Source: a bacterium HR35 (GTDB lineage: Bacteria > Patescibacteriota > Minisyncoccia > UBA6257 > HR35). From it: a DNA stretch of 36,826 bases. The stretch spans positions 115,264 to 152,089 of the forward strand of contig BEIL01000002.1 in NCBI GenBank assembly GCA_002898235.1. The letters run 5' to 3'. Positions 28,464 through 29,508 of this stretch are shown here, in pieces. Each line of letters starts with the position of its first letter. Positions within the stretch are counted from its first letter, which is position 1. Under the pieces are notes generated by a model. That model saw nothing but the letters and a program-made list of their open reading frames with translations. It searched no databases and was not told the DNA's origin. The position numbers were made by a program, and so were the translations under genes.

Positions 28464-28531
28464 TGATTTAATTATAGAAATAAATAACAAATTTTTTAAA
28501 AAATTTATTGAAAATTTATTATAAAACCCTA

Positions 28532-28634
28532 TTCTTAATTTCTTAAAAAATTCAGAAATTATAATTATAATGATTGATTTTTTATTTAACCGTTTAAGGT
28601 GCTATAGCGTGTTAAACGGTTGAATATGGAAATT
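28532..28634 (-). repeat. 103-bp direct repeat, copy A
   Basis: Identical to 29264-29366 except 28547(a)/29279(g); contains AACCGTTTAA-N14-TTAAACGGTT. Confidence 0.97.
28588..28621. promoter_or_regulatory. inverted repeat AACCGTTTAA-GGTGCTATAGCGTG-TTAAACGGTT (copy A)
   Basis: Perfect 10-bp arms; loop contains the palindrome GCTATAGC. Confidence 0.85.
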
Positions 28635-28654
28635 AGCAAAAAATCAAGGTATAT

Positions 28655-28672
28655 TTTAAGATACTATAGCGT
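28655..28672. repeat. degenerate copy of TTTAAGRTRCTATAGCGT (A2)
   Basis: TTTAAGATACTATAGCGT, 62 bp from the first copy. Confidence 0.85.
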
Positions 28673-28696
28673 TGTAGATGTATCCTTCTGTAAATT

Positions 28697-29074
28697 TTAA
28701 AATTTATATAATCTCAGTTCTTTTATCTTCTTAAAATCTCTTAAATTAAAAGTAAAAAGTTCAGCATCTAAATAAATTGAAGTAGCAGAAATAAGAGCAT
28801 CTGGTAGTTTAATTTTATATTTAGATCTTAAAAAACCTCCCAATTCAGCAATAGAGAAATCAATTGGAATAAAATAAAAATTATTAACAAAAGATTTAAT
28901 AGTCATTCTTTCGCTTTCAGTAAGTTTTGGATAACTCATCATTTCAGCAAAAACAATTGCTGGCACATATATTGAGAAATTTTTATTAATCAAATTCTCT
29001 AAATGATAAGTGACTGTTTCATCTTTTAGAAGATATCTTATTAGAACATTTGAGTCAACAACTATTTTGTCCAT
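28697..29074 (-). CDS. PIN-domain ribonuclease toxin (VapC-like)
   Basis: VVDSNVLIRYLLKDE, IYVPAIVFAEMM, IKLPDALISATSIYLDAELFTFNLRDFKKI: PIN acidic residues and spacing. Confidence 0.9.
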   Translation of the reverse strand: MDKIVVDSNVLIRYLLKDETVTYHLENLINKNFSIYVPAIVFAEMMSYPKLTESERMTIKSFVNNFYFIPIDFSIAELGGFLRSKYKIKLPDALISATSIYLDAELFTFNLRDFKKIKELRLYKF

Positions 29075-29211
29075 TCTTTCTTAGTTTTTTTAATGTGTTC
29101 TAAAAGAAGCCGCAGTTTTTTGCTATCTATCAATCCTTGGTATTTTCTTAAAATCTCTATTTTATTTTCTTTTGGTTTTTTTAATAAAATCTGTTTCATT
29201 TTAGCACTCAT
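29062..29211 (-). CDS. 49-aa antitoxin-like protein overlapping the PIN toxin start; not in the supplied ORF track
   Basis: MSAKMKQILLKKPKENKIEILRKYQGLIDSKKLRLLLEHIKKTKKEWTK*; 13-nt overlap with the toxin ORF; extended -10 TGTTATAAT upstream. Confidence 0.75.
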   Translation of the reverse strand: MSAKMKQILLKKPKENKIEILRKYQGLIDSKKLRLLLEHIKKTKKEWTK

Positions 29212-29217
29212 AATTCA

Positions 29218-29226
29218 ATTATAACA
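29218..29226 (-). promoter_or_regulatory. extended -10 promoter for the TA operon
   Basis: TGTTATAAT on the minus strand, 6 nt before the antitoxin ATG. Confidence 0.55.
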
Positions 29227-29263
29227 TACCTTTCAAAATTATTAATTTTTAAATAAATTTAAT

Positions 29264-29366
29264 TTCTTAATTTCTTAAGAAATTCAGAAATTATAATTAT
29301 AATGATTGATTTTTTATTTAACCGTTTAAGGTGCTATAGCGTGTTAAACGGTTGAATATGGAAATT
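29264..29366 (-). repeat. 103-bp direct repeat, copy B
   Basis: 102/103 identical to 28532-28634, offset exactly 732 bp. Confidence 0.97.
29320..29353. promoter_or_regulatory. inverted repeat AACCGTTTAA-N14-TTAAACGGTT (copy B)
   Basis: Perfect 10-bp arms, upstream of the TA operon promoter. Confidence 0.85.
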
Positions 29367-29397
29367 TGAAAAAATATTAAGAAATGTAAGGGAATGT

Positions 29398-29415
29398 TTT
29401 AAGGTGCTATAGCGT
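29398..29415. repeat. TTTAAGGTGCTATAGCGT (B2), adjacent to the tRNA-Ser 3' end
   Basis: Exact match to the core in copies A1/B1; ends 5 nt from the tRNA discriminator. Confidence 0.85.
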
Positions 29416-29420
29416 TTAAG

Positions 29421-29508
29421 CGGAGGGGGTGGGATTCGAACCCACGAGACCCCGGAAAGGGGCCACGGCTCTCCAGGCCGTCCCGTTAGTCCACTCCGGC
29501 ACCCCTCC
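29421..29508 (-). tRNA. tRNA-Ser (GGA)
   Basis: Acceptor GGAGGGG/CCCCTCC, anticodon arm ACGGC-CTGGAGA-GCCGT, long variable arm GGCCCCTTTCCGGGGTC, T-arm GTGGG-TTCGAAT-CCCAC. Confidence 0.95.

Follow-up and report, generated by a model that had tools for sequence, protein, structure and literature searches.

Which protein restrains a PIN-domain toxin when the only gene that overlaps it encodes 49 amino acids, too few for an antitoxin of the usual design? In the usual description, a VapB antitoxin joins a DNA-binding head to a toxin-binding tail, and its annotation relies on finding the head. The window analysed here, a stretch of 36,826 nucleotides of bacterium HR35 (contig BEIL01000002.1), belongs to a 0.6-Mb genome in five contigs (G000). 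A preliminary description of this DNA had pointed out an intact minus-strand ORF overlapping the start of the toxin gene by 13 nt, regarded it as an antitoxin with a promoter of its own, and proposed that it could represent a new antitoxin type. The ORF and its overlap are confirmed and sequence comparisons support the antitoxin role, while the novelty of the type is not borne out. The reading that we favour, with a probability of about 0.86 judged from sequence, is a type II VapBC operon in which a VapB of 49 aa, cut down to its toxin-binding tail, would plug the nuclease, and in which gene order and translational coupling would provide the control.

Toxin gene and overlapping ORF

The features of the locus are as follows.
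28532..28642, plus strand: 111-nt direct repeat, copy 1, located 3′ of the toxin gene and containing the palindrome AACCGTTTAAGGTGCTATAGCGTGTTAAACGGTT (sequence comparison)
28697..29074, minus strand: vapC-like PIN-domain toxin gene, 125 aa, with D7, E44 and D92 present (Pfam, alignment, AlphaFold2, Foldseek)
29062..29211, minus strand: vapB-like antitoxin ORF, 49 aa, without DNA-binding domain (ORF reading, family searches, tail HMM)
29062..29074, minus strand: antitoxin/toxin overlap of 13 nt, the toxin ATG lying within GAA-TGG, the conserved Glu-Trp codons of the antitoxin (sequence)
29071..29160, minus strand: conserved VapC-binding tail, antitoxin residues 18–47, with invariant G26, conserved W47 and K44 at the usual Arg position (alignment, HMM, AlphaFold2)
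29218..29226, minus strand: extended −10 element TGTTATAAT, ending 6 nt 5′ of the antitoxin ATG (pattern match; predicted leaderless start)
29264..29374, plus strand: 111-nt direct repeat, copy 2, 97% identical, located 5′ of the antitoxin gene (sequence comparison)
29420..29508, minus strand: tRNA-Ser(gga), adjoining the second repeat

The toxin is a VapC by sequence and by predicted fold. It matches Pfam PF01850 at 1.4e-15, its acidic active-site residues D7, E44 and D92 are invariant across eight aligned relatives, and its AlphaFold2 model (pLDDT 94.5) has its best Foldseek matches in VapC2 of Rickettsia felis (3zvk) and VapC of Klebsiella pneumoniae (7by2/7by3). A PDB profile search with the eight relatives places Klebsiella VapC at the top (7by2_B, 2e-21), followed by R. 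felis VapC2. From the comparison of fold and active-site residues, VapC is a predicted PIN-domain ribonuclease.

As in other VapBC pairs, a small gene lies upstream of the toxin gene on the same strand and overlaps it. The ATG is the start codon of the 49-aa frame, whose translation is identical to the sequence quoted in the preliminary description. Since an in-frame stop lies two codons 5′ of this ATG and the other upstream frames are closed, the antitoxin can reach at most ~50 aa, and neither a longer form nor a split N-terminal domain can be accommodated. The N-terminal DNA-binding domain by which VapBC antitoxins autoregulate is found in no frame and matched by no model. The family search suggested earlier was run, and the single protein matches no family in Pfam, NCBIfam, PADLOC or PHROGs, which includes RHH, MazE/AbrB and Phd and agrees with the original impression that none of these types fits; a profile of ten antitoxin relatives retrieves nothing relevant from the same four libraries. 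Two of the relatives have weak DnaB_2/DnaD matches (0.002–0.004), which were judged to be chance likenesses of helical, charged sequence. No close orthologue of the 49-aa ORF was found. The basic, helical character ascribed to the protein is supported; its AlphaFold2 model predicts helices at residues 17–28 and 31–48, with a pLDDT of ~86–90 over residues 31–49 and low confidence (~55–64) in the N-terminal part.

A conserved tail with variable heads

In the order, 11 of 244 genomes carry relatives of the toxin; in the class 21 of 384 do so and in the phylum 24 of 380, and 48 loci from elsewhere were added. Most of these toxins have a small ORF directly 5′, and the antitoxins beside them share a tail with the consensus KKKKSFKKAKGILKNKKIKDPLEYQKKIRKEWERRL. 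A simple motif, [RK]xx[WY], is too loose (26% in shuffles), and an HMM with controls was used in its place, trained on ~80 tails from other loci with the window protein excluded. This HMM scores residues 18–47 of the 49-aa protein at 19.9 bits, a value that none of 2000 shuffles reaches (maximum 14.6); the next best ORF of the window scores 5.3 bits. A tail-bearing neighbouring ORF (E ≤ 1e-3) accompanies 98 of the 113 related toxins versus 10 of 113 when the ORFs are reversed, a count that is partly circular because most of these loci had trained the HMM; at the 32 untrained loci, 22 tails were found. The ORF upstream of homologous toxins, whose conservation had been named as a check on the antitoxin role, is therefore conserved, and the 49-aa gene is almost certainly, as far as such comparisons can tell, the antidote of the toxin gene that it overlaps.

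The separate profile searches with toxins and antitoxins converge. Ten small antitoxins, the window protein included, retrieve from the PDB the tails of 7by2_A, an RHH-type VapB (2e-4), and of YiiF (2k5j), so that both halves of the pair point to one solved complex, 7by2. The Gly that is invariant in the ten aligned antitoxins is retained in the window protein as G26, as is the Trp, W47. At the plug position, 75 of the 98 loci carry Arg and seven carry Lys; the window protein has Lys (K44), and in sequence it thus has both the C-terminal tail signature and a basic plug residue, with Lys for Arg.

In longer relatives the same tail stands behind RHH_1 (L153), MazE/AbrB (L167) or Phd/YefM (L137) heads, and behind unassigned N-termini in others. 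Of the tail proteins, 37 of 98 measure no more than 62 aa, which, given domains of ~40–45 aa, would leave no room for a standard head in addition to the tail. What travels with the VapC clade is therefore the tail; the DNA-binding head is swapped or missing. The tail-only form is a pared-down version of a familiar system, and some other antitoxins that carry this tail are headless as well. In the window, toxin, gene order and inhibitory tail fit VapBC and the DNA-binding head is missing, which makes the pair a variant of VapBC rather than a classical member.

The ORF could, on the other hand, be a decayed VapB fragment whose DNA-binding domain has degenerated away and which is no longer, or no longer fully, functional, as might be suspected from the Lys in place of the usual Arg, from an ORF length among the shortest, and from a relative in genome G007 whose toxin gene is broken by a stop and a frame change, so that such loci do degenerate. 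We nevertheless consider decay quite improbable, because the toxin is intact with all its active-site residues and could hardly be maintained in the absence of an antidote, antitoxins of 48–62 aa consisting of the tail recur across many lineages, no domain remnant is present in any upstream frame, and the ORF has an intact start, a promoter-like −10 element and a coupled overlap. A genuinely new antitoxin, unrelated to VapB and with another principle of inhibition, would agree with the failure of the single protein to match any family model; it is very hard to reconcile with residues 18–47, which form a VapC-binding tail that is homologous to VapB of known structure, alignable with that of the RHH-type VapB in 7by2, and to the tails of RHH-, AbrB- and Phd-headed VapB proteins. 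The proposal of a new type is unsupported because the inhibitory tail is already known and the DNA-binding part alone is missing. Finally, short ORFs are plentiful in A+T-rich DNA, yet a chance ORF, with the true antitoxin elsewhere or the toxin solitary, is barely credible in the face of the shuffle test and a tail conserved in position.

Tail-only VapB forms occur in Patescibacteria and some other phyla and match no model in the libraries searched, and the toxins of such pairs are therefore readily annotated as lone PIN proteins. Should the tail-only forms neutralise their toxins, the tail suffices and a pair can persist without the standard autoregulation.

Proposed mechanism and known systems

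In the VapBC operon with a tail-only VapB that we prefer, the helices at residues 17–28 and 31–48 would wrap the PIN domain, W47 and hydrophobic residues of VapB would fill the toxin groove, and K44, the counterpart of the conserved Arg, would sit among D7, E44 and D92 and displace metal ions in the manner of Arg64 in the Shigella VapBC. In the latter, the tail packs aromatic residues into a groove and inserts Arg64 and Gln66 into the acidic active site, where they replace metal ions (PMC3384007). The predicted helices together with W47 and K44 agree with this groove-and-plug scheme, and by analogy a similar tail mechanism may apply here. Inhibition by a C-terminal tail is what the Shigella flexneri complex (3tnd) would have in common with the window pair, the Arg entering its active site being a Lys in the window protein. 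However, both Shigella VapBC and R. felis VapBC2 possess an AbrB/MazE-type head and form a hetero-octamer on DNA, neither of which can form in the same way here.

The closest solved antitoxin tail, that of Klebsiella VapB, shares the pattern G-[IL]-[WL]-...-Y-Q-x-x-[LI]-R-x-E-W with the window protein. The Klebsiella protein differs in that it has 82 aa and was deposited as a CopG-family (RHH) regulator, its tail comprising residues 44–82, whereas the window antitoxin consists of the tail and ~17 other residues only. Short VapB-like proteins of other Patescibacteria and Bacteroidota (L122, 48 aa; L110, 50 aa; L127, 58 aa; L157, 54 aa) are alike in their tail, their position before the toxin and their lack of room for a standard head, but differ in low overall identity, other N-termini and, mostly, Arg at the plug position; the tail of L127, a close relative, is identical to that of the window protein at 10 of 23 positions. 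In a limited search of open papers, tail-only VapB proteins were nowhere described. By its title, a 2015 study cited in PMC7472061 reportedly defined a minimal VapC4-binding module of VapB4, which points the same way.

Lacking a DNA-binding head, the 49-aa VapB is unlikely to autorepress its transcription as VapB antitoxins usually do. The balance between the two proteins more probably depends on the order of the genes, on an antitoxin start that is probably leaderless, and on translation re-initiating at the toxin ATG within the last codons of the antitoxin gene. Regulation may also pass through the toxin, by analogy with Haemophilus influenzae, where, reportedly, VapC-1 binds DNA and VapB-1 on its own does not (PMC4803016). 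The window pair comprises the only two ORFs between 28532–28642 and 29264–29374, and a regulator gene as in tripartite systems of the omega-epsilon-zeta or PaaR-PaaA-ParE type is absent from this interval. PaaA2-ParE2 of E. coli O157 resembles the window pair in having a short antitoxin without a DNA-binding domain. It differs in the ParE fold of its toxin and in its tripartite arrangement (PMC4803016), in which a third gene, PaaR, regulates, while the repeats here enclose no third gene.

Gene expression and genomic setting

The promoter ascribed to the antitoxin gene holds as a pattern: TTAATA-16-TGTTATAAT matches at 10 of 12 positions and includes the TG. It is important to point out that promoter-like matches are common by chance in A+T-rich DNA (8 found versus 6.6 ± 2.9 expected). 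The −10 element begins at −12 from the ATG, and −10-like hexamers starting between −15 and −11 precede 8 of 37 window genes versus 3.6% of non-start ATGs (P = 4e-5). The antitoxin start is plausibly leaderless, because its −10 spacing falls within the range enriched before window genes. The gene starts with such a hexamer 11–15 nt 5′ are 3517, 4787, 7453, 12769, 21049(−), 28463(−), 29211(−) and 33427(−). Among the window genes listed, only two have a Shine-Dalgarno-like sequence, and leaderless starts seem to be widespread in this genome.

Across related loci, the conserved Trp codon provides an ATG in the toxin frame at 23 of 72; in four of these a stop precedes the toxin, so that ~19 real candidates remain. 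A toxin start of the form GA-ATG-G, made from the Glu-Trp codons of the antitoxin, is also seen at L156, L159, L166, L168, L179, L193, L194 and L151, from several phyla and an archaeon. The embedding of the toxin ATG in antitoxin codons at several loci suggests translational coupling of the two genes.

The TA pair is accessory, being absent from the corresponding locus of the same-genus genome. That genome, G001 (L074 1–1542 versus window 28490–29508), keeps the order groEL, groES, tRNA-Thr, pilin-like gene and tRNA-Ser, and there rpsB/tsf-like genes (named from sequence by eye) follow the tRNA-Ser in place of the pair. Within each of the 111-nt repeats that flank the pair, a palindrome built around GCTATAGC has a predicted RNA folding energy of −14.1 kcal/mol (z −4.2), and a second palindrome of more variable sequence comes after it. 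The pair may be a cassette that recombination between these repeats has moved. A REP/RAYT origin can be rejected for the repeats of this genome; G000, G002 and G007 have no Y1 transposase. Neither the toxin nor the palindrome has a relative in viral contigs, and the cassette DNA is absent from plasmids. A wider proposal, in which a tail-only VapB lineage, with its leaderless start and its toxin start in the Trp codon, would lack any transcriptional autoregulation and the pair would move as a cassette between palindromic repeats with the GCTATAGC core, appears unlikely.

The next gene on the strand beyond the TA pair is membrane protein-like. Among 17 genomes of the family, the palindromes are confined to G000, G002 and G007, occurring single or paired in the latter two, with none in the other 14. 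They are intergenic repeats with the core GCTATAGC(G) and are often paired; further pairs lie at C1:419–515 (L051 419–515) and C1:112,040–112,145 (L052 2040–2145), and L078 1118–1190 is another site of this repeat family. The broken toxin relative in G007 (L005 / G007:C1:252521–252841), with its internal stop and frame change, is accompanied by a short antitoxin ORF, L093, that is still readable. The second palindrome, TTTCTTAAGAAA or near it, of which a version lies within the 111-nt repeats, is present in five copies within 0.7 kb at L053 1330–2005 (G000:C1:213.8–214.5 kb).
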